From NCBI RefSeq assembly GCF_023715895.1, contig NZ_JAMBOO010000015.1, positions 1 to 64,000 of the forward strand: 64,000 bases of DNA, in the 5' to 3' direction. Position numbers and translations under genes: made by a program. Positions 40,470 through 59,653 of the stretch are shown one piece after another. Origin of the DNA: Domibacillus indicus (GTDB lineage: Bacteria > Bacillota > Bacilli > Bacillales > Domibacillaceae). Numbering within the stretch: the first letter of the stretch is position 1; each line of letters starts with the position of its first letter. The notes beneath the pieces are model-generated. The model worked only from the letters and a program-made list of their open reading frames with translations. It was not told the DNA's origin and ran no database searches.

Positions 40470-40520
40470 TTGATTCATCCTCTAATTTGTATTATGATAA
40501 ATTCAAATAAAAAACGCTTT
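40470..40520 (+). promoter_or_regulatory. promoter of SR1-like RNA, with near-cre site
   Basis: A -35 box TTGATT (40470-40475) and -10 box TATGAT (40493-40498) are 17 bases apart. Around 40510-40522, AAAACGCTTTCAA is close to the CcpA consensus. In B. subtilis SR1 is repressed by CcpN and CcpA under glucose; similar control is inferred. Confidence 0.7.
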
Positions 40521-40544
40521 CAAAAAAGCTGGGAGGAATACACA

Positions 40545-40661
40545 ATGGGTACTATCGTTTGTCAAACTTGTCTAGAAACTATGGAACATTTCGAAGAAGA
40601 AAAGGTAACATTGTTGTATGCAGATTGCGGTTGCGGCCATGAAAATGGCAGCAATGAATAA
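40545..40661 (+). CDS. sr1P: SR1P, GapA-binding peptide
   Basis: A 38-residue peptide beginning MGTIVCQTCLETMEHFEEEKV and ending YADCGCGHENGSNE. The order of cysteines (Cys6, Cys9, then CGC near residues 28-30) and MGTIVCQ start match SR1P, the peptide encoded on the dual-function small RNA SR1 of B. subtilis, which binds GapA and stabilises gapA mRNA. GGGAGGA lies 8 bases before the ATG. The short transcript probably runs from the promoter at 40470 to the palindrome at 40702. Confidence 0.87.
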   Translation: MGTIVCQTCLETMEHFEEEKVTLLYADCGCGHENGSNE

Positions 40662-40701
40662 CCAGTTTAAAATTAAAATTTTACCACTATAAAATAGGCT
40701 G

Positions 40702-49935: not shown

Positions 49936-50434
49936 AATACCATACCCTAAACTTTTGCACATAAGCCTGGCTGCTAAAATTGAGAGAAGAAGGGAAAACA
50001 CATGACGGGTGAGCGCTAGTTTTTTAGAATAGGCTCGATGCCTATTTCGAAAGCGGGAAAGAAATTGAGAAAAAAAACACGCAACATTTACGCAGAGAAT
50101 AGGATGTATGAAGAGCTTCCAGCCAGCCCTCTTAAGCCCTAATGCCTGAAAGAAATGCTGTACAGATTGGTTTAGGAAACTAGGAGGGAGGGGGTTATAT
50201 AGTTCTTAGCCTCCGTACTTAAGCATCTTCTATTGCTTATATAAAAGCAGATTTGTTTTCGGTAAGTACCTTTTAAGGACGGGATAGAGACAAATTCTCA
50301 CAGCTGGCTGGCTGTTTAAGGACATCCTTGTTTTCGCTCGCTGAAAGTGCCATGAAACATGTTTCTGGAAGCGGCGTTGAACAGTGGTCATGGTGGAAAT
50401 TTATGATTACATTGTGAGGGGAAGGGGCATTAAA
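49936..50434. other. intergenic region
   Basis: Five hundred bases with no gene, repeat or hairpin I can support. It includes the promoter of the nucleotidyltransferase, which I could not place. Confidence 0.4.
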
Positions 50435-51469
50435 TTGAAAGGAATACTTCTATGCGCTGGGAATGGTACGCGGATGCAGCCATTTACTTTTTCATTGCCA
50501 AAACCGCTATTGCCGGTAATGAACCGCCCGCTTATCGATCACGCGATTGAAAAGTTTCAGGCGGCCGGCATACAAGAGATTGGGTTGGTCATCAATCCTT
50601 CTCAGCAGGCAATTGCCGATCATATAAACACTGCTTACAAAGGCCAGAAAATTGAGTTGCTGGTTCAAAGAAAGCAACTGGGTATTGCACATGCGCTTCG
50701 TTCCGTGCAAGATTTTATTGGAGAAGAGACATTCGCATTGCTTCTCGGCGACAACCTTTTAACCGGCCCGCTGCGTGCATTAGTTCAGTCAGCAGCGGAC
50801 GGAAAGTCGTCTCTTCTTTTAAAGCGGGTACCGAACCCGCAGGAATTTGGTGTTGCGTTAGTCGACAAGAAACAGAGCCGTATTTTAAAACTGGAAGAAA
50901 AACCTTCCGTACCAAAAAGTGATCTGGCCGTGATGGGTGCTTATGTATTTCAGCCTGCTATTTTCGATGCAATCAATGCTATTCAACCATCAGGACGTGG
51001 TGAATACGAGATTACAGATGCTATTCAGTGGCTGATCGACCATGATTATCCGGTGACGTATCGTGAAACACTTTTACCCATTTTTGACGTTGGGACGCAC
51101 AGCCGCTGGCTAGAGGCGAACACATGGATGATGGCTGAACAGGGACAGGGAGAAGTTAGCATTGGACGAAATACAAGTGTTGAAAAGTGTGTGTTTCTTG
51201 GGAACGTACATGTTGGAGATGACTGTATCCTGGAAAATGCAGTGATAGGGCCAAACGTATCTTTGCAAAATGGCTGTGTGGTGAAAGAGTGCCGTATCGA
51301 AAACAGTATTTTGCTGGCGGGTGCAGCTGTTCAAACTCGTCAATCCATTCGTGATAGCATTTTAGGGCAGGGGGCAGTCGTGAAAGGGGATACGATTAGA
51401 GGTGTAGTTCGCTGTATCCTTGGAGACAAATCGGTATATGAACTATATGAGCAGGAATCAGATACATGA
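50435..51469 (+). CDS. sugar-1-phosphate nucleotidyltransferase (YtdA/long RmlA-like)
   Basis: A 344-residue enzyme with an N-terminal nucleotidyltransferase domain and a C-terminal left-handed helix domain. The nucleotide loop is LCAGNGTRMQPFTFSLPKPLLPVMNRPLIDHA, where GNGTRM-P replaces the usual GGGTRL-P; the metal site is LLLGDNLL near residue 104. The C-terminal half has hexapeptide-like turns (IGRNTSVEKCVFLGNVHVGDDCILENAVIGPNVSL). It makes dTDP- or UDP-glucose for the glycosyltransferase cluster downstream. The start is TTG 50435, 7 bases after GAGGGGAAGGGG; a frame from 50384 lacks a site. Confidence 0.85.
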   Translation: MKGILLCAGNGTRMQPFTFSLPKPLLPVMNRPLIDHAIEKFQAAGIQEIGLVINPSQQAIADHINTAYKGQKIELLVQRKQLGIAHALRSVQDFIGEETFALLLGDNLLTGPLRALVQSAADGKSSLLLKRVPNPQEFGVALVDKKQSRILKLEEKPSVPKSDLAVMGAYVFQPAIFDAINAIQPSGRGEYEITDAIQWLIDHDYPVTYRETLLPIFDVGTHSRWLEANTWMMAEQGQGEVSIGRNTSVEKCVFLGNVHVGDDCILENAVIGPNVSLQNGCVVKECRIENSILLAGAAVQTRQSIRDSILGQGAVVKGDTIRGVVRCILGDKSVYELYEQESDT

Positions 51470-51713
51470 GCAATTTGTAGAATCGGACAAAAAGATTTCT
51501 ATCATAAAGGAGAATAGGAACGGTATTGCAATGGGGTACAAAACTTTATGTTTCCAATCCAGGTGAATCTTTTTGCCCAGTAAAGTACAGTGAGGAAAAG
51601 GCTTGCGGGGGCTTTTAACAGTTCTGCATTTAGGACTCTAACATTTAAAAATTTCTAGACATTGGCGATATTTTTAAATGAAAAATGTCTGTGTCTTTGC
51701 CGACAGGCAGTCT
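51470..51713 (+). other. intergenic region after nucleotidyltransferase
   Basis: A 33-codon frame from TTG near 51530 (LQWGTKLYVSNPGESF...CGGF) follows AAAGGAG at a long spacing. I cannot confirm it as a gene. Confidence 0.35.
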
Positions 51714-51745
51714 AAGCTTTTGCTCTTAAGAGCAAAAGCTTTTTA
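51714..51745. terminator. perfect-palindrome terminator
   Basis: 51714-51741 is a perfect 28-base palindrome (outer AAGCTTTTGC, centre CTTAAG) followed by TTT. It can work in both directions, and it ends just before the rRNA scar. Confidence 0.85.
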
Positions 51746-51775
51746 CATCACGCTCTATAATCTCTCTTAAGATTC

Positions 51776-51901
51776 CAGATCGACGGGGAGGTTTGGCACC
51801 TCGGTGTCGGCTCATCGCATCTTGGGGCTGTAGTCAGTCCCAAGAGTTGGGCTGTTCGCCCATTAAAGCGGTACGCAAGCTGGGAACGATGACTTAATTA
51901 A
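51776..51901 (+). pseudogene. 23S rRNA remnant (domain V piece joined to 3' end)
   Basis: 51776-51887 is a copy of the conserved domain V stretch of 23S rRNA with several changes: landmarks are GACGGGGAGGTTTGGCACC, TGTCGGCTCATCGCATC, GGGCTGTTCGCCCATTAAAG and GGTACGCAAGCTGGG. Right after GCTGGGA the sequence jumps to GATGACTTAATTA, a changed copy of the 23S 3' end (GAGGACTTAATCA at 107-119). About 400 bases between the two parts have been deleted, and nothing of 23S is left 5' of the piece. Confidence 0.93.
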
Positions 51902-51975
51902 AACATATGTGGTACGGTATGCTGTTACTTTACAGAGATTATCCAGTTTTGAAGGAACAGTTTTGTTCCATATAG
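51902..51975 (+). repeat. 23S-5S spacer duplicate
   Basis: This spacer repeats 121-195 almost exactly: GGTATG, CGTT/TGTTACTTTACAGAG, ATTATCCAGTTTTGAAGGAAC and TTTTGTTCCATATAG occur in both, with a few changes. Confidence 0.9.
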
Positions 51976-52090
51976 TCTGGTGGCAATAGCGAAGAGATCA
52001 CACCCGTTCCCATCCCGAACACGGTCGTTAAGCTCTTCAGCGCCCGTGATAGTTAGGACTTTCTCCTGCGAGAGCAGGAAGTCGCCTGCC
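51976..52090 (+). pseudogene. diverged 5S rRNA copy
   Basis: It starts TCTGGTGGCAATAGCGAAGAG like the copy at 196 and keeps CCCGAACACG. The 3' half has diverged, but some changes pair with each other: the helix TGGGGG/CCCCC has become AGGA/TCCT, and helix I keeps wobble pairs at most positions. No upstream intact rRNA gene or strong terminator is present. It is listed as a pseudogene, though folding may be preserved. Confidence 0.8.
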
Positions 52091-52155
52091 CCCATTATAT
52101 TTTTATTACATCCTTCATCTATTCAATCCATTGGACGTAAACAACTTGGACAGAT

Positions 52156-53241
52156 CTACTTTGCTTGAAAAGGTGTCAGTTTCAATATTTGTTCATATAT
52201 GTCAGGCAAATCCATCAGAGATTTTCCCGACAGCATTTTCATCGATTGAGCTACAATGTCTGCCCCATGATGAGGTACTTTGCTGAAGGCTGCTTCGTAA
52301 TACTGTTTTTGGCTGATCATTTGTTTTATTCTTGCCTCCAGTTCCGGCAAGGGCATGTCATGCTCCGCGACACAAGAATCATCCCCCGCAAGCTCCTTCA
52401 GCATCATATTTTTAACTTCTCGTTCCTTTGTATCTGCAGGCAATGCCAGCAAAGGAGTTCCTGTAGAGATGCAGTCCATCAAGATGCCCATTCCAGGTTT
52501 GCTTATCACGAGGTCAGCTGCATTCACTAATTCGCGGCCGTTTTCGAATAGCGGCGCCTGGACTATTTTTGAATTGAATAGAAAGTCCGCACCCCCGAGC
52601 TGACCTGCAACAACAATCCGATATGTTGCTTTCAACTGATTGATTTTTTCATACCATTCATCCATATAGCGGTATCGGAATTTTCCAATCCCTCCTCCCA
52701 TTTGAACGAGGATGAATGGTTCATCTGCCGGAATTCCCAGTCGTGACTTCACCTGTTCCGGTTGCATGGTGATATTTCGGGCTATGATTGGGATTGGCAC
52801 ATATAAAGTAGTCAATTCCGGAATTTCCTTTGGCTGTGTAAGATTGATGTGAAAAAAGATATCTGTTGATCTTTGGGAAACCGCACGGATTTGTTCTTTA
52901 AACTTTTTCGTCTGATCTGTATCTTCATCAGATACACTCATATCACTATGATAAATTCCGCCTATGATGGGTCTCTGGCCTTTCCGCTGCTTTTTTGTCG
53001 CCTTCACTTCATCTCTCCAATCATGAATAAGTAAGCTGGCATTAAGAAGCTGGTCGGCTTCTTTTCTAAAACGTACGGAATCATGTATTTCTGTATCAGT
53101 GAGATTCGACTTCAACCATTCGTGTGTATGTGAAAAAGCAAAAATTTTCACCTCTTCACCGCTTATTTCCTTGAACTTTGAAATATTGGCCACACAGGGA
53201 TTCAAATGACCCAGGTTTTTTCCGACAATATAATGAATCAA
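52156..53241 (-). CDS. MurG/GT28-like glycosyltransferase
   Basis: A 361-residue GT-B glycosyltransferase. The N-terminus MIHYIVGKNLGHLNPCVANISKFKEI resembles the glycine loop of GT28 enzymes with GH. The C-terminal donor half has FILVQMGGGIGKFRYRYM near residue 182 and ADLVISKPGMGILMDCISTGTPLLALPAD near 255, the usual nucleotide-sugar site. It is divergent from the next glycosyltransferase and joins the polysaccharide cluster. The acceptor and sugar are unknown. Confidence 0.8.
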   Translation of the reverse strand: MIHYIVGKNLGHLNPCVANISKFKEISGEEVKIFAFSHTHEWLKSNLTDTEIHDSVRFRKEADQLLNASLLIHDWRDEVKATKKQRKGQRPIIGGIYHSDMSVSDEDTDQTKKFKEQIRAVSQRSTDIFFHINLTQPKEIPELTTLYVPIPIIARNITMQPEQVKSRLGIPADEPFILVQMGGGIGKFRYRYMDEWYEKINQLKATYRIVVAGQLGGADFLFNSKIVQAPLFENGRELVNAADLVISKPGMGILMDCISTGTPLLALPADTKEREVKNMMLKELAGDDSCVAEHDMPLPELEARIKQMISQKQYYEAAFSKVPHHGADIVAQSMKMLSGKSLMDLPDIYEQILKLTPFQAK

Positions 53242-53553
53242 TCCTGCTCCGCCTTCCTTTCCTGCCGTCTAAGATATTCTATTATATATGTTCCGCACAT
53301 CCTTTAGTACTTGGCTTTTACCCAAAAAGGCGAAAAATGAGGATATTCCATGATCATCCTGACCATACTTCTAACCTTTTAATCTGCAGCCTCTCTCCTC
53401 AGAAAAAAATCAGAGAATACTGTTTATACACCCATGAACACATCAAACAAGACTTTCATAAAATATAGTGATTGCAGCATGGAAGAACAGGTTGTGTCGC
53501 TTCCCGCTGCTAATTTACAGCTCCGATAGAGGTGGTGAAAAACCATATTACGT

Positions 53554-54615
53554 GTGGCAGTTGTCAGAGGACGGTACCTTCCGATCAGTGAAACATTCAT
53601 TTACTCTGAATTGGTAAATGTCAAATCGGTTTCCCCTATCGTTTGTTGCAAGAAGATCATGAACCTTGTGCATTTTCCTTTTGAGACCATCCATGAATAC
53701 AAGGATAATGATGATCTGATAGACATCCTCCGCGCCCAAAAAATCAGCCTGATTCACGCAAGGTTTGGCGTAACTGGAGCTGATTTGCTTGAAGTCAAAA
53801 AAGAACTCGGGATCCCGATGTTGACTTCTTTTCATGGTTTTGACCTGCCGACAAATGTAAAGTCCATGCGAAGATATGGTGATCGGCTGCAGCATTTATT
53901 TGAACATGGAGATGCATTCACGGTTACTTCAGAGAACATGAAGGAAATCCTTATCAAATACGGATGTTCTCCGGATAAAATATTCGTCCATCACAGCGGA
54001 ATCAATGTAAGTAAGTTTTCATACAAAAAGCGCACAGCACCAGAGAATGGAATCATCACGGTCTTGACGGTCGGGAGGCTCGTTGAAAAGAAAGGAATGG
54101 AATACCTAATTGAAGCTGTTCATCGGGTTCACCAGCATTACCCAGGCATCAGGCTGCGTATTGCCGGAGATGGGAAGTTAAGACCGACGCTTGAAAAACA
54201 GGTAGAACAGCTGCAATTGGATGGAATCGTCAAGTTCCTCGGGGAAGTTTCCCATCAGGCTGTAGTAGAAGAAATGGAAAAAGCCCATTTATTCGCCCTC
54301 GCCAGTACGACTGACAACATCGGAAATCAAGAAGGAATTCCAAATGTTTTAAAAGAAGCCATGGCATGTGGTTTGCCTGTGCTTTCGACAAAACATGCAG
54401 GGATACCGGAGCTTGTAGAGGATGGAAAATCGGGATTTCTCGTCCCGGAACGCGATCCCGTCGTATTGGCCGAGCGCTTGCTGCATCTTGTTCAGCACTC
54501 CGAGGATTGGGAAAGGTTCGGTACACACGGCAGAGAAACCGTTGAACAGTTCTTTAACATAGATAAACAAATTGAAAATTTAGAAAGAATATACAGCTTG
54601 CTGCTGTCAAAATAA
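53554..54615 (+). CDS. GT4-family glycosyltransferase
   Basis: A 353-residue retaining glycosyltransferase. The donor domain shows TVGRLVEKKGMEYLIEAVHRV near residue 172 and the E-x7-E motif EGIPNVLKEAMACGLPVLSTKHAGIPELVEDGKSGFLV near 265. A GTG start at 53554 is taken, with GAGGTGGTGAA about 13 bases upstream; the true start may be an upstream non-standard codon, because the protein begins abruptly at the first strand (VAVVRGRYLPISETFIYSEL). It leads the five-gene plus-strand operon of this cluster. Confidence 0.85.
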   Translation: MAVVRGRYLPISETFIYSELVNVKSVSPIVCCKKIMNLVHFPFETIHEYKDNDDLIDILRAQKISLIHARFGVTGADLLEVKKELGIPMLTSFHGFDLPTNVKSMRRYGDRLQHLFEHGDAFTVTSENMKEILIKYGCSPDKIFVHHSGINVSKFSYKKRTAPENGIITVLTVGRLVEKKGMEYLIEAVHRVHQHYPGIRLRIAGDGKLRPTLEKQVEQLQLDGIVKFLGEVSHQAVVEEMEKAHLFALASTTDNIGNQEGIPNVLKEAMACGLPVLSTKHAGIPELVEDGKSGFLVPERDPVVLAERLLHLVQHSEDWERFGTHGRETVEQFFNIDKQIENLERIYSLLLSK

Positions 54616-54638
54616 GTTTACGTAAGAGGTGATGAGTT

Positions 54639-55454
54639 TTGCCCAAGATAAGTGTCGTTATTCCCACTTATAACCGGGGAGAGTTTACCGTACATGCAGT
54701 CGAGAGTGTCCTTGCTCAAACGTACAAGGATTATGAAATCATCGTTGTCGACGATGGTTCAACAGATAATACGGAAGAGCTATTGCAGCCATATAAGGAT
54801 CGGGTCCGCTATGTAAAGCAGAAAAATCAAGGCCCTTCAGCTGCCAGGAATACCGGTATCCGCCTTGCGGAAGGTGAATATATCGCCTTTTGTGATTCGG
54901 ATGACAGATTTCTACCTGAGAAGCTCGAAAAACAAATGGAATTTATCGAAAAGAACCCTGACTGCAAATTTTTATATACCTGGTATTACAATGTGAATGA
55001 TCAAGGGGAATACACGAAACTACGGAAACCGAATACCTGTGAGAATAAAGAGCAGTTACAATATTTTTTGTTTATCCGCAAATTTACGATCAGAACCTCC
55101 ACTTTGTTGATTCACAAGAGCTGCTTTGAAAAGACGGGGCTTTTTATCGAAAAATATTGGTATTCCCAGGATTGGGATATGTGGCTTCGGCTGGCTGCCT
55201 ATTATCGTGGTTATTGTCTGGAAGAGCCTTTAGCTGAATATTGGCTCCATGAGGATAATCGCAGCAGCCTCAGGGTTAGAATCTACCATCCTGAAATTAT
55301 TGAGTCCACGCTAAAGCTTTATGGATGGGATGAGAAGAAGATTGCTAAATTAGAAGAAAAGTACGGGAAAAGGGAGAGTCAAGAGGTGCAATACCCGTCA
55401 AAAAATCCCGGAAACGGATCAGACAGCACTGATGTCAACGGGGGTAGCTCTTGA
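54639..55454 (+). CDS. GT2-family glycosyltransferase
   Basis: A 271-residue inverting GT-A enzyme. It has the canonical start ISVVIPTYNRGEFTVHAVESVLAQTYKDYEIIVVDDGSTDNTEELL, the metal motif IAFCDSDDRF near residue 88, and a late WSQDWDMWLRLAAYY acceptor region. Its start is TTG at 54639 after GAGGTGATG. The last codons (PSKNPGNGSDSTDVNGGSS) form a flexible tail, and the stop overlaps the next start. It is of the type used for capsule, spore coat or glycoprotein sugars. Confidence 0.87.
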   Translation: MPKISVVIPTYNRGEFTVHAVESVLAQTYKDYEIIVVDDGSTDNTEELLQPYKDRVRYVKQKNQGPSAARNTGIRLAEGEYIAFCDSDDRFLPEKLEKQMEFIEKNPDCKFLYTWYYNVNDQGEYTKLRKPNTCENKEQLQYFLFIRKFTIRTSTLLIHKSCFEKTGLFIEKYWYSQDWDMWLRLAAYYRGYCLEEPLAEYWLHEDNRSSLRVRIYHPEIIESTLKLYGWDEKKIAKLEEKYGKRESQEVQYPSKNPGNGSDSTDVNGGSS

Positions 55455-56623
55455 TGAAAATTGCTTTAATATGTTCAGACAGGGGCCCCGCCCCCCCTGT
55501 GAGGGGCGGAGCCATCCAATTATTAATCAGCAAAATTGCACCATTGCTTGCCAAAACATATGAAGTTACGGTTTTTTCTGTCACTGATCCTTCCCTCCCC
55601 GATACAGAATGTACAAATGGTGTTTACTTCGAACGCTATGATAAGGACCAGTTTTTCCAGCAAGTGTGTGAAAGGGTAAAACAAGTTCAGTTTGATGTGA
55701 TCCAGGTTTACAACAGGCCGGGCTATATTCCATTGATTCGGGAGGCCTCCCCCCGGTCCAAAATCATCCTGTCACTCCACAACCTTGTATATAACACATT
55801 AAAAGTAGAAAGCCCTCTTGCCGAAGCAGCATTCAGGGAAGCGGATTGGATTTTTACGGTCAGCAGGTTCATCGCTGAAGATACGGCCGAAAAGTTCCCG
55901 GAAGCTTCCGCTAAAATCCAGCCCCTTTACACTGGTGTAGATTTGGATGATTACTCACCCATTTGGTCAAAGACAGGACGAAAATGGCGAAATGAAATTC
56001 GCTCATTGTATAATCTCGATTCAAAAGATCCCGTCATTCTCTTTGTAGGCCGTCTTGTTCCAGACAAAGGGTGCCACCTTGTTTTAGCTGCAATGAACGA
56101 GATTCTGAAAAACGTCAAACATGCAAAATTGCTGATAGTTGGAAGCAAGTGGTATGCAGATGGATCCACAAGCAAATATATAGAGGGACTGAAGCAACTA
56201 GCGAGAGAACATGAACACAGTATCGTATTCGCTTCCTATGTACCAGTAGAAGAAATTCCAAAGTATTACGCAGCCGCAGACCTTTTCATCTGTCCATCGC
56301 AATGGAAAGAGCCGCTTGCAAGAGTGCATTATGAAGCAATGGCGGCAGGATTGCCCATCGTTACAACCAGACGGGGCGGCAATCATGAGGTAGTTCAGAC
56401 CGGGAAAAATGGGATTGTGATAGATGATTATAAAAATCCAGCGGCCTTCGCAGCTGCTTCGATTGACATCCTTAATGATCCACATAAAGCTATCACAATG
56501 GGGAAAGCGGGCCGAAAAGACGCCAAAAAGATATATAACTTTGACCGGGTCACCTCTGATATTGCACTCCTTTATACAAAACTCTTTGAAAGCAATGAGC
56601 AAGGGCCAAATTCGTCCTCATAA
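55454..56623 (+). CDS. GT4-family glycosyltransferase, CotSA/YtcC-like
   Basis: A 389-residue GT4 enzyme. The start KIALICSDRGPAPPVRGGAIQLLISKIAPLLAKTYEVTVFS, the middle ILFVGRLVPDKGCHLVLAAMNEI, and SQWKEPLARVHYEAMAAGLPIVTTRRGGNHEVV are closely similar in my recollection to B. subtilis CotSA, a spore coat protein with a glycosyltransferase domain, and its paralog YtcC. It overlaps the previous gene by the ATGATG at 55451-55456; the second ATG is chosen. A spore coat role is inferred from this resemblance and the neighbours. The ~20-base stretch at 55480-55510 is unusually GC-rich. Confidence 0.85.
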   Translation: MKIALICSDRGPAPPVRGGAIQLLISKIAPLLAKTYEVTVFSVTDPSLPDTECTNGVYFERYDKDQFFQQVCERVKQVQFDVIQVYNRPGYIPLIREASPRSKIILSLHNLVYNTLKVESPLAEAAFREADWIFTVSRFIAEDTAEKFPEASAKIQPLYTGVDLDDYSPIWSKTGRKWRNEIRSLYNLDSKDPVILFVGRLVPDKGCHLVLAAMNEILKNVKHAKLLIVGSKWYADGSTSKYIEGLKQLAREHEHSIVFASYVPVEEIPKYYAAADLFICPSQWKEPLARVHYEAMAAGLPIVTTRRGGNHEVVQTGKNGIVIDDYKNPAAFAAASIDILNDPHKAITMGKAGRKDAKKIYNFDRVTSDIALLYTKLFESNEQGPNSSS

Positions 56624-56642
56624 AACGGAGGACTTTGAAAGG

Positions 56643-57962
56643 ATGAAATGGATCATGAAAGTTACTGTGATTGGTTCCGGATATGTTGGAACCACGACAG
56701 CTGCAGTATTGGCTGCTTTAGGCCATCACGTAATCGGTGCGGATGTGGATTCCGCAAAGGTAAAAAAGTTATCGGCCGGGATACTTCCATTTGTAGAGCC
56801 TGGTTTGGACAAAATGCTGAATGATAATAACACGAGGGGCACATTAAAATTTACCGATCAGATCAAGGAAGCGATTCAGGCAAGTGACATCTTGTTTATT
56901 GCCGTCGGGACTCCTTCTCTTGAGGATGGTACTGCCGATTTAAAATATCTCCGTTCAGTAGCCGATGCAATTGCCGCTTCCATTAATGATTACAAAGTCA
57001 TTGTCATCAAAAGTACGGTCCCCATTGGCACCAATCGCTGGTTATCGGATTATCTAGAGAAAAAAATCTCTGACTGCACCCTATTCGATGTTATCTCCAA
57101 TCCGGAATTTCTGCGGGAAGGTCATGCCGTCTATGATTCTCTTAATCCTGATAGGATCATCATTGGCGGAAACAATCAGGGGGCCATTACCATTATAAAA
57201 AAACTGTATCACCAGCTTAACAGTAAATACGTTATATGTGATTGGGAAACAGCTGAATTAATTAAGTACGCCTCGAATGCTTACCTTGCAGCCAAAATTT
57301 CCTTTATCAATGAAATAGCCCAAATCGCAGACAAGACAGGAGCCGATATCCTTCAAGTCGCTTACGGAGTCGGACTAGATTCACGGATAGGCGCAGAATT
57401 TCTTAAATCGGGAATTGGCTATGGCGGCTCTTGTTTTCCTAAGGATGTAAAAGCGTTGATTTCTACAGCGGACCTAATAGGTGTTAAAACCCACATTTTG
57501 AAAGAAATAGAATCCGTTAATGAAGCAATGCCTGATGTGTATCTGGCGAAATTGGCTGCTTCTTTAAAAAAGAAACCCTGGACAATCTCCATACTCGGCC
57601 TCACTTTTAAGCCTGAAACGGATGACCAAAGAGAATCTCCTGCCATTAAAATTGTGAACAAACTTCTGCCTGCATGCAAAGAGATCCGCATCCTTGATCC
57701 TACCATTCAATCAAACCTGCAAACTCCATGGCCTCATGACAGTAAAGTCAAAGTCTGCCAAACAATCGAAGAGACATTGGCCAGAACTGATGCAGCAATC
57801 CTATGTACAGCATGGGATACCTTCACCGGCATTGATTGGAATAAGGCAAAGGATTTTATGAAAAACCCGGTCCTGTTGGATGGGCGGAACCTTTATGATC
57901 CAAACATAATGAAGGCAGCCGGCATAACCTATCTAGCATTAGGGAGGGGAAATCAAACATGA
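56643..57962 (+). CDS. UDP-glucose 6-dehydrogenase (YtcA/TuaD type)
   Basis: A 439-residue UDP-glucose/GDP-mannose dehydrogenase that makes UDP-glucuronate. The NAD loop is VIGSGYVGTTTAAVLAALGHHVIGADVD at residues 8-35, and the catalytic Cys is in GIGYGGSCFPKDVKAL near residue 260. The C-terminal domain has ILGLTFKPETDDQRESPA. Starts at 56643 or 56655 both fit GGAGG/AAAGG sites. A frame reaching back to 56424 is open only by chance and overlaps the previous gene. In B. subtilis ytcA lies beside ytdA, ytcB and ytcC, the same set as here. Confidence 0.9.
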   Translation: MKWIMKVTVIGSGYVGTTTAAVLAALGHHVIGADVDSAKVKKLSAGILPFVEPGLDKMLNDNNTRGTLKFTDQIKEAIQASDILFIAVGTPSLEDGTADLKYLRSVADAIAASINDYKVIVIKSTVPIGTNRWLSDYLEKKISDCTLFDVISNPEFLREGHAVYDSLNPDRIIIGGNNQGAITIIKKLYHQLNSKYVICDWETAELIKYASNAYLAAKISFINEIAQIADKTGADILQVAYGVGLDSRIGAEFLKSGIGYGGSCFPKDVKALISTADLIGVKTHILKEIESVNEAMPDVYLAKLAASLKKKPWTISILGLTFKPETDDQRESPAIKIVNKLLPACKEIRILDPTIQSNLQTPWPHDSKVKVCQTIEETLARTDAAILCTAWDTFTGIDWNKAKDFMKNPVLLDGRNLYDPNIMKAAGITYLALGRGNQT

Positions 57963-58900
57963 AGGTACTGGTTACTGGTGCAGCTGGTTTCATAGGCTCT
58001 CACCTATGTGAACGGCTGTTGGCTGAAGGACACGACGTGGTAGGTGTTGATATGTTCCTGTTCAAAGAACGGGAACGCTTTACGCAATATAACATAAAAG
58101 AACTTTTACAGCATCCTAACTTTAAGTTAGTCAACGGCAATCTTCTCGAGCTTGATTTAAAAGAACTCCTTGAGGGGATCGAAGTCATCTTCCACCAGGC
58201 AGCGATCCCAGGCGTCAGGAATAGCTGGGGAACTAACTTTCGGCAGTACGTGGAACTGAATATCCTAATGACTCAGAGGCTCTTGGAAGTATGCAAGGAT
58301 CTGCCTCTCAAAAAATTCGTGTACGCATCGACTTCTTCCATTTACGGTATAACGGACGGCAGAACCTCTGAAGACAAACCTGCAATGCCGATTTCTCCAT
58401 ATGGTACAAGTAAATTGGCCGGTGAGCACTTAGTTCGTATGTATCACCTGAATTTTGGGCTGCCGGTAACTTCGCTGAGATACTTTACCGTATATGGTCC
58501 AAGGCAGCGTCCTGACATGGCCTTTCACAAATTCTTAAAAGCAATCCTAAGAGACGAATCCATCCCCCTCTTTGGAGACGGCCAGCAAACCCGGGATTTC
58601 ACGTATGTGAGTGATGCCGTTGAAGCAAATATACTGGCAATGAATCACCCGGAGCATGGAAATGCGTTCAATATCGGCGGCGCGGCAAGGTCTTCCGTGA
58701 ATCAAGTCCTTACTGTGATGGAAGCTGTCACAGGAAAGAAAATAAAAATCGATTACCAGTCCAGGCAGCCAGGCGATCCGCTCCATACATGGGCTGATAT
58801 ATCTCGGGCGCGTGAAAAGCTGGGATATAACCCAAAAATCACCTTGCATGAGGGCATCCAAAATGAATGGGATTACATCAAGAAAATGTATCAACCCTAA
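57959..58900 (+). CDS. NAD-dependent UDP-sugar 4-epimerase (YtcB-like)
   Basis: A 313-residue extended SDR. NAD loop VTGAAGFIGSHLCERLLAEGHDVVGVDMF at the start, active site Ser in YASTSSIYG and Tyr/Lys in SPYGTSKLAGEHLVRMYH. It resembles UDP-glucuronate or UDP-glucose 4-epimerases and probably acts on the product of the dehydrogenase upstream. Its ATG overlaps that gene's TGA (ATGA at 57959-57962), indicating coupling. It is the last gene of the operon. Confidence 0.88.
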   Translation: MKVLVTGAAGFIGSHLCERLLAEGHDVVGVDMFLFKERERFTQYNIKELLQHPNFKLVNGNLLELDLKELLEGIEVIFHQAAIPGVRNSWGTNFRQYVELNILMTQRLLEVCKDLPLKKFVYASTSSIYGITDGRTSEDKPAMPISPYGTSKLAGEHLVRMYHLNFGLPVTSLRYFTVYGPRQRPDMAFHKFLKAILRDESIPLFGDGQQTRDFTYVSDAVEANILAMNHPEHGNAFNIGGAARSSVNQVLTVMEAVTGKKIKIDYQSRQPGDPLHTWADISRAREKLGYNPKITLHEGIQNEWDYIKKMYQP

Positions 58901-59653
58901 ACAATATCAAAAGATTGTGGAGCGGAACCGGATCATATGTTTACAAACACAGCACCATATAAGGCTGCTGGTTGATCGACATCTAGAGGAATACAGATGT
59001 TAGAAAAAGTATCTGGTCTGATGCCCTGCAAACCAGATCACAGGGTCAGAAATGTTTTATGTAAATTCATTAAATTTCGTGTGAGAATTTAAAATTCTGA
59101 ACAAGTTTTTGGATTCGATTTATAAATGTTTTAAGCGCTATTTTGCACGTTCTTACCAGAGAAAAAGTAAAGCTCTACACCAGAAAAATTGCTTTTATAC
59201 TTATTTGATTTTAATCATTAAGCTGTCATGTATAGCCTTATAATATAGTATTAATGACAGTTAAGTTCATGTTATATGGAAAGAATAGAGGATATAAAAT
59301 CAATCCCTATATCCATGGGTTTACATGTAAACAACCGGCAGCAAAAATTAATAAAACAATTGGATTTGTTATAACCGCTATATAAATCAGGACTCGAGGT
59401 AATTAATTCTATTACATGTAGAGCCCAATTAATACATGTAGTAAAGCAGGAATGGAAACAAGAAAACCCCCAGAATGTTCTGGGGGAAATGGAAAAAAAG
59501 AAAAAGCAGGAAGAGTAGAAAAAGCAGGATGTTTGTTCCATCACTATTTTATTTTTGCCCAATAAGTGTAAACATAATTACTTTCATCCTAATTTATTTT
59601 GGACTGTTATGGGCAGTCCTTTTTTCATTTTCCTTGTTCTGATTGTTCACAGG
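58901..59653. other. intergenic region with minus-strand terminator
   Basis: CCCCCAGAA (59467-59475) and TTCTGGGGG (59478-59486) form a stem with TTTTCTTG after it on the minus strand, so it likely ends mnxG transcription, 170 bases after that stop. A 96-codon minus frame at 59272 covers this hairpin and is not considered a gene. Nothing else is supported. Confidence 0.7.

Follow-up and report, generated by a model that had tools for sequence, protein, structure and literature searches.

In a 64,000-nt stretch of Domibacillus indicus DNA (hereafter the window), positions 51714-52090, lying between a YtdA-like nucleotidyltransferase gene and a glycosyltransferase gene, very probably represent the remnant of an rRNA operon that was lost by stepwise deletion in the descendants of an ancestor. 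The rRNA scar was confirmed as real, with pieces in operon order over 51760-52090 and a hairpin at 51714-51744 that probably goes with them. As remnants at graded stages of decay were found in relatives, the order of loss can be read. This graded series of orthologous scars, together with further rRNA relics in the genus, is new beyond the initial annotation, the main reading of which is supported, and strengthened, by the orthologous intermediate states.

Composition of the rRNA scar

The scar consists of ~125 nt of 23S domain V joined to the final 17 nt of the 23S, after which come the 23S-5S spacer and a diverged 5S (Table 1). Its parts were delimited by reading alignments against the operons of G006, a genome listed under the window's own species. 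Homology and order are established by the Rfam matches to LSU_rRNA_bacteria at 51745-51900 (+ strand, 118.9 bits vs. a gathering threshold of 50, E 9.3e-35, model positions 2474-2632 of 2925) and to 5S at 51976-52090 (+ strand, 81.6 bits vs. 38, E 8.5e-16); in addition, a BLAST comparison of 51714-52090 with an intact operon gave a best score of 252 bits vs. a maximum of 27.4 among shuffled sequences (n = 100, shuffled in 2-nt blocks). The rRNA homology of the scar, in operon order and strand, is thus far above chance, as expected of a relic. The initial description of a domain V piece fused to the end of the 23S, followed by spacer and diverged 5S, was confirmed by the Rfam matches and operon alignments, with the internal 23S junction at 51884/51885 and 51885-51901 corresponding to the 23S 3' end. 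The 16S, the promoters and most of the 23S are missing. Within the 64,000 nt, the only other rRNA match by Rfam is an operon end at 1-311, and no tRNA was found across the whole window.

Table 1. Parts of the scar and flanking genes (window coordinates)
Feature	Position	Strand	Evidence or remark
Terminator-like hairpin with T run	51714..51744	+	Left edge of scar; read as remnant of the operon's upstream flank
Ambiguous stretch	51745..51759	+	Weakly alignable to 23S or to the post-hairpin sequence of contig C127
23S rRNA domain V remnant	51760..51884	+	Rfam 118.9 bits; 10/123 differences vs. G006 operons
Final 17 nt of 23S, joined via an internal deletion common to G010	51885..51901	+	Alignments to G006 operons
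23S-5S spacer, type A (of two G006 spacer classes)	51902..51975	+	2/56 differences over the conserved part
5S rRNA pseudogene	51976..52090	+	Rfam 81.6 bits; 15 substitutions and 1 deleted nt vs. one G006 operon
Nucleotidyltransferase gene with hexapeptide-type C-terminus ("YtdA-like" in the initial annotation)	50384..51469	+	PF00483, 2.3e-44
Glycosyltransferase gene (family 28 C-terminal domain), convergent with the YtdA-like gene	52156..53241	-	PF04101, 8.7e-6

The extent initially given for the element, 51776-52090, is right as to its content, but the 5' limit probably lies further left, as the hairpin accompanies rRNA sequence. The 15 nt between hairpin and domain V are ambiguous: Rfam aligns them to the 23S with a 4-nt insertion, and the motifs ACGCT and then CTATA follow the hairpin on contig C127 of the window's genome in the same order as here (by eye). 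Allowing at most 3 mismatches, the hairpin occurs at 8 sites in the 13 genomes of the genus, six of which border rRNA remnants, namely this scar in four genomes and, in two of them (the window's genome and G006), a second relic located behind an aldolase-like gene. The remaining two lie upstream of an rRNA operon, on C127, ~0.5 kb before the 16S start, and on its counterpart C80 in G010 (Domibacillus sp. PGB-M46), where we infer the operon because neither contig extends past the start of the 16S, each stopping there or within the leader. In the corresponding leader of G006 (best 40 of 46-76 candidates per genome compared), a full 16S follows and the hairpin is absent, as judged by eye and by a search for its core. 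These data suggest that the hairpin probably belongs to the scar and that some operons of this family may have it at their upstream edge. The idea that it flanks rRNA operons in general was rejected, the exact core CTCTTAAGAG being present in 0/20 of the 1.36-1.47 kb stretches fetched upstream of the G006 16S genes. To the left of the hairpin, ~60 nt at window 51648-51706 recur at 80% identity in G007:C6:105735-105795, possibly as an intergenic repeat.

Orthologous scars in four genomes and a model of decay

Our search covered 13 Domibacillus genomes, the window's own (G000) included. Some match to 51400-51975 was obtained in 8 of these, several to ordinary rRNA genes only (for G006, among the best 40 of 66 candidates), and the orthologous scar is present in four: the window's genome, G006, G010 and G009 (D. 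robiginosus). The same four are the only ones of the 13 to carry the adjacent glycosyltransferase gene and the only ones with a YtdA-like protein of at least 91% identity, the next best-scoring match elsewhere being 35%. As the window's assembly comprises 180 contigs, with many rRNA matches at contig ends, one might ask if the scar is a chimera arising from collapsed repeats in a draft, but three other assemblies have the scar flanked by the same genes, and its divergence from the operons amounts to 8% for domain V and 27% for the 3' part of the 5S, making such an origin barely conceivable.

The left edge of the scar is identical in the window, G006 and G010, and these orthologues display different degrees of loss. 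The G006 scar runs from domain V through the 23S 3' end with small deletions, followed by a spacer insert of ~115 nt and a 5S missing 21 nt, and it is free of the window's deletion between domain V and the 23S 3' end. In G010, the 23S deletion has the same junction as in the window, a common junction at which no direct repeat was seen, and the 5S is missing the same 21 nt as in G006; in G009, the 23S is gone altogether, whereas the hairpin, a portion of the spacer and a diverged 5S are still present. This series, comprising one scar without the deletion, two with a shared junction and one devoid of 23S, fits well with the original proposal that an operon was lost by internal deletion.

Based on these states, the four genomes very probably descend from an ancestor in which an rRNA operon, oriented as the scar is now, stood between the YtdA-like gene and the glycosyltransferase gene that converges with it. 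A first deletion probably removed the promoters, the 16S, the 16S-23S spacer and most of the 23S up to domain V. After the lineages split, G006 retained the rest of the 23S, the window and G010 probably lost the segment between domain V and the 23S 3' end in one shared event, and G009 lost all of its 23S; the 5S became a pseudogene, with 21 nt lost between two CCGTT repeats in G006 and G010. We infer this ancestral state because none of the genomes examined has an intact operon at the site. The ancestral copy was presumably a complete working operon, the hairpin may derive from its upstream flank, and redundancy, as illustrated by the 20 16S genes of G006, may have rendered the loss neutral.

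Compared with the operon consensus, 20 substitutions are common to the window and G010, of which 9 are also found in G006 and 11 are absent there, with 1 common to the window and G006 only and 1 to G010 and G006 only; some of these columns adjoin the spacer insert, and their assignment varies with how the sequences are aligned. Identity of the flanks is 94.2% between the window and G010, and 92.6% and 91.9% between the window and G006. Over another 15-kb region the window and G006 are 94.3% identical, yet the window is nearer to G010 at the scar locus. The shared substitutions, like flank identity, group the window with G010. In conflict with this grouping is the 21-nt deletion in the 5S, which is common to G006 and G010 but not the window, a discrepancy that requires either that this repeat gave rise to a deletion twice or that gene conversion partly restored the copy in the window. 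As the deletion spans two copies of CCGTT that are 21 nt apart in an operon, a recurrent deletion is plausible.

Outside the genus, we scanned a genome collection for patterns of the glycosyltransferase, an approach that finds close relatives only, and obtained 8 loci. In Peribacillus glennii, the cluster is collinear over window 52144-59066 with 88.5% DNA identity, the similarity beginning at 52144 by BLAST and ~52097 by eye, and therefore the shared sequence begins just to the right of the scar. No rRNA match was found in the 13 kb locus of P. glennii, and a different nucleotidyltransferase (32% identical) occupies the place of the YtdA-like gene, which therefore need not be an original member of the cluster. 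The scar had initially been described as separating the YtdA-like gene from its cluster; it does lie between them, but original membership is now less supported given the arrangement in P. glennii. The glycosyltransferase cluster at 52144-59066 has likely been transferred between genera. As to other parts of the window, there is an SR1 RNA match at 40501-40682 (52 bits, gathering 45). The names "KDPG aldolase" and "RmlA" are our own readings of the protein letters.

The coincidence of the P. glennii boundary with the right side of the 5S end, together with the difference in the left gene, would also be in keeping with a rearrangement, in which recombination at rRNA operons brought two segments of the chromosome together, the remnant then marking their junction instead of an operon that had been inserted between neighbouring genes. 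We consider this origin, which is compatible with the decay model, rather unlikely, since a single operon with later deletions accounts for all the pieces and the alternative junction was found in none of the 13 genus genomes.

Divergence of the scar and state of its 5S

Two classes of 23S-5S spacer and 5S end were discerned among the 19 operon ends read in G006, comprising 9 and 10 operons, and we used the consensus of the 9 type-A operons as reference for divergence. The window copy differs from this consensus at 10/123 positions in domain V, 3/15 in the 23S 3' end, 2/56 in the spacer, 2/66 in 5S nt 1-66 and 13/49 in 5S nt 67-116. The contrast drawn in the initial annotation, of a spacer and 5S 5' half matching an intact operon almost base for base vs. 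a diverged 3' half, is therefore well founded for the window copy (2/56 and 2/66 vs. 13/49; Fisher p = 2e-5); the same unevenness is weak in G006 (p 0.03) and G010 (p 0.06) and absent in G009 (p 0.83). Changes from GC to AT vs. those from AT to GC numbered 20:5 in the window, 16:6 in G010, 19:2 in G006 and 20:16 in G009, showing a GC-to-AT bias in three of the four copies and no clear bias in G009.

The 5S portion still scores 81.6 bits with Rfam, its 5' half is nearly unchanged and 28-29 of 34 model pairs form (28 in the window copy vs. 30 in an intact copy), features that would also be consistent with selection maintaining a diverged 5S that still functions, or an RNA derived from it. Against this, the G006 and G010 orthologues are missing 21 nt that comprise the inner hairpin of the first arm of the Rfam model, and for this reason we regard the scar 5S as a pseudogene. 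Pairing is no better retained than with random placement of changes in G010 (P 0.80), G006 (P 0.71) and G009 (P 0.34); in the window copy, P was 0.046 for the whole 5S and 0.26 when matched by half, so that pairing is not clearly above chance. A conserved structure of the 5S relic was rejected as unsupported, with the nominal P of 0.046 in one copy as the exception. As for the compensating changes suggested at first, one double change keeps pairing (G-C to A-U) and one mismatch is restored, but helix I has lost two of its pairs; the P values of 0.046 and 0.26 are those just given. In addition, only 15 nt separate the hairpin from the 23S piece, and thus the promoter region of the operon is gone. 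With 13 changes in the 49 nt of the 3' part, two broken helix I pairs and the 21-nt deletion in two of the three other scar genomes, the 5S is not conserved; the deletions and the random-level pairing in three orthologues demonstrate relaxed constraint, and retention of a working 5S appears highly improbable from these comparisons.

Other relics and rRNA operon number in the genus

G006, a 5.1 Mb genome in two contigs, has 20 full 16S genes (all candidates scored) and a 163-nt 16S fragment of 84% identity at C1:958784-958946 that starts at the stop codon of a gene. At E <= 0.001 and with all candidates scored, its 23S sequence comprises 19 full genes, one running into N, and this scar. At least 23 matches to 5S were found in G006, 19 of them in operons, 1 in the scar and 3 without an adjacent 23S (best 150 of 163-221 candidates per genome). 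Full-scoring 5S genes without an adjacent 23S, among the matches listed, are G006:C1:1265005, C1:895580 and C2:987396 as well as G000:C55:29381 and C93:234207, and two of those in G006 seem to have counterparts in the window's genome as judged by equal match figures. The 23S-5S spacer of some operons harbors all or part of a GC-rich insert of ~115 nt (G006:C2:1918050-1919100, or L099, together with L108 and L097), and the insert in the G006 scar is 92% identical to that of an operon with full 23S (C2:1918 kb).

Further relics were recognized. A second orthologous relic, consisting of the hairpin and 58 nt of 23S-5S spacer, lies behind the aldolase-like gene at G000:C55:52189-52278 and G006:C1:918605-918694, and a diverged 5S (63 bits) with spacer and without 23S at G009:C71:7611-7726 is probably another. 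G010 carries a second domain V relic (C59:3270-3577), which precedes a full-scoring 5S (100.6 bits). We rejected G006:C2:2687501-2690457 as a truncated 16S-23S relic, since its 23S runs into a stretch of N and another operon matches both its 16S and its 23S part at 99% identity.

The C59 relic bears on the question of whether the scar is a short repeat, mobile or dispersed, in which rRNA pieces are included by chance, as its 23S piece is nearly the same as that of the scar, with left edges one nt apart, and the spacer insert recurs across several operons. The C59 relic, though, is without the substitutions common to three of the scars (by eye), and its 3' junction fits a modelled deletion between ACGCGAGCTG in the 23S and a second copy of this 10-nt sequence within the spacer insert; on both grounds, the substitutions and this repeat of its own, a common cause for the domain V relics on C56 and C59 of G010 was rejected. 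Moreover, the insert occurs only beside 5S or in relics (four genomes; best 40 of 59 candidates in G006, all in the others), and both the window's genome and G010 gave a single full-length match to the scar rather than matches at several sites as for a mobile element. The short element at many non-rRNA sites that would have spoken against an operon scar was not seen in G006, where a single 23S scar lies beyond the genes (E <= 0.001). Taken together, a mobile repeat has very little to recommend it compared with a decayed operon.

Decay of protein-coding pseudogenes proceeds by AT-biased substitutions and by deletions between short direct repeats. The scar resembles them in both respects, but what decays here is an operon for structural RNA, which exists in multiple copies and can undergo gene conversion. 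An unlinked 119-bp 5S sequence outside the operons has been described in Francisella (PMC3479022). The scar 5S is likewise away from any intact operon, and G006 has at least three full-scoring 5S genes without an adjacent 23S; in contrast to the orphan 5S as that report presents it, the Domibacillus scar keeps 23S pieces and spacer, and its 5S is broken in relatives. Loss of a chromosomal rrn operon has been described for Persicobacteraceae and others (PMC10645730), likewise with an rRNA operon lost from a chromosomal site, but the remnant in Domibacillus, a word not used in the main text of that report, is visible and graded, and 20 full 16S genes are left in G006. This number exceeds the maximum of 15 rRNA operons that a 2018 review (PMC6002687) gives for some species, from which newer surveys may differ.

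Among the papers listed in full-text searches of the open-licence literature, none was seen, by title or opening lines of the abstract, to treat rRNA operon relics in Bacillaceae, which does not prove the absence of such reports. Tentatively, the birth and death of rRNA operons might be legible in Domibacillus as a kind of fossil record, in which an rrn-rich genome carries relics that have reached different stages, some of them orthologous between genomes, some arising by short-repeat deletion between 23S and spacer insert and some perhaps surviving as orphan 5S, and with the 3' edge of one operon possibly serving as the joint for a glycosyltransferase island. As for annotation, Rfam scores such relics above gathering (5S 81.6 and 23S 118.9 bits), resulting in inflated rRNA gene counts. 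The process described is an ordinary one that can here be seen unusually clearly; the scar is a good molecular fossil and no new kind of system. To our knowledge, loss of rRNA operons has mostly been inferred from copy numbers; here, one such loss can be followed base by base in four genomes, including the order and sizes of the deletions and the way in which rRNA mutates once selection no longer acts on it.
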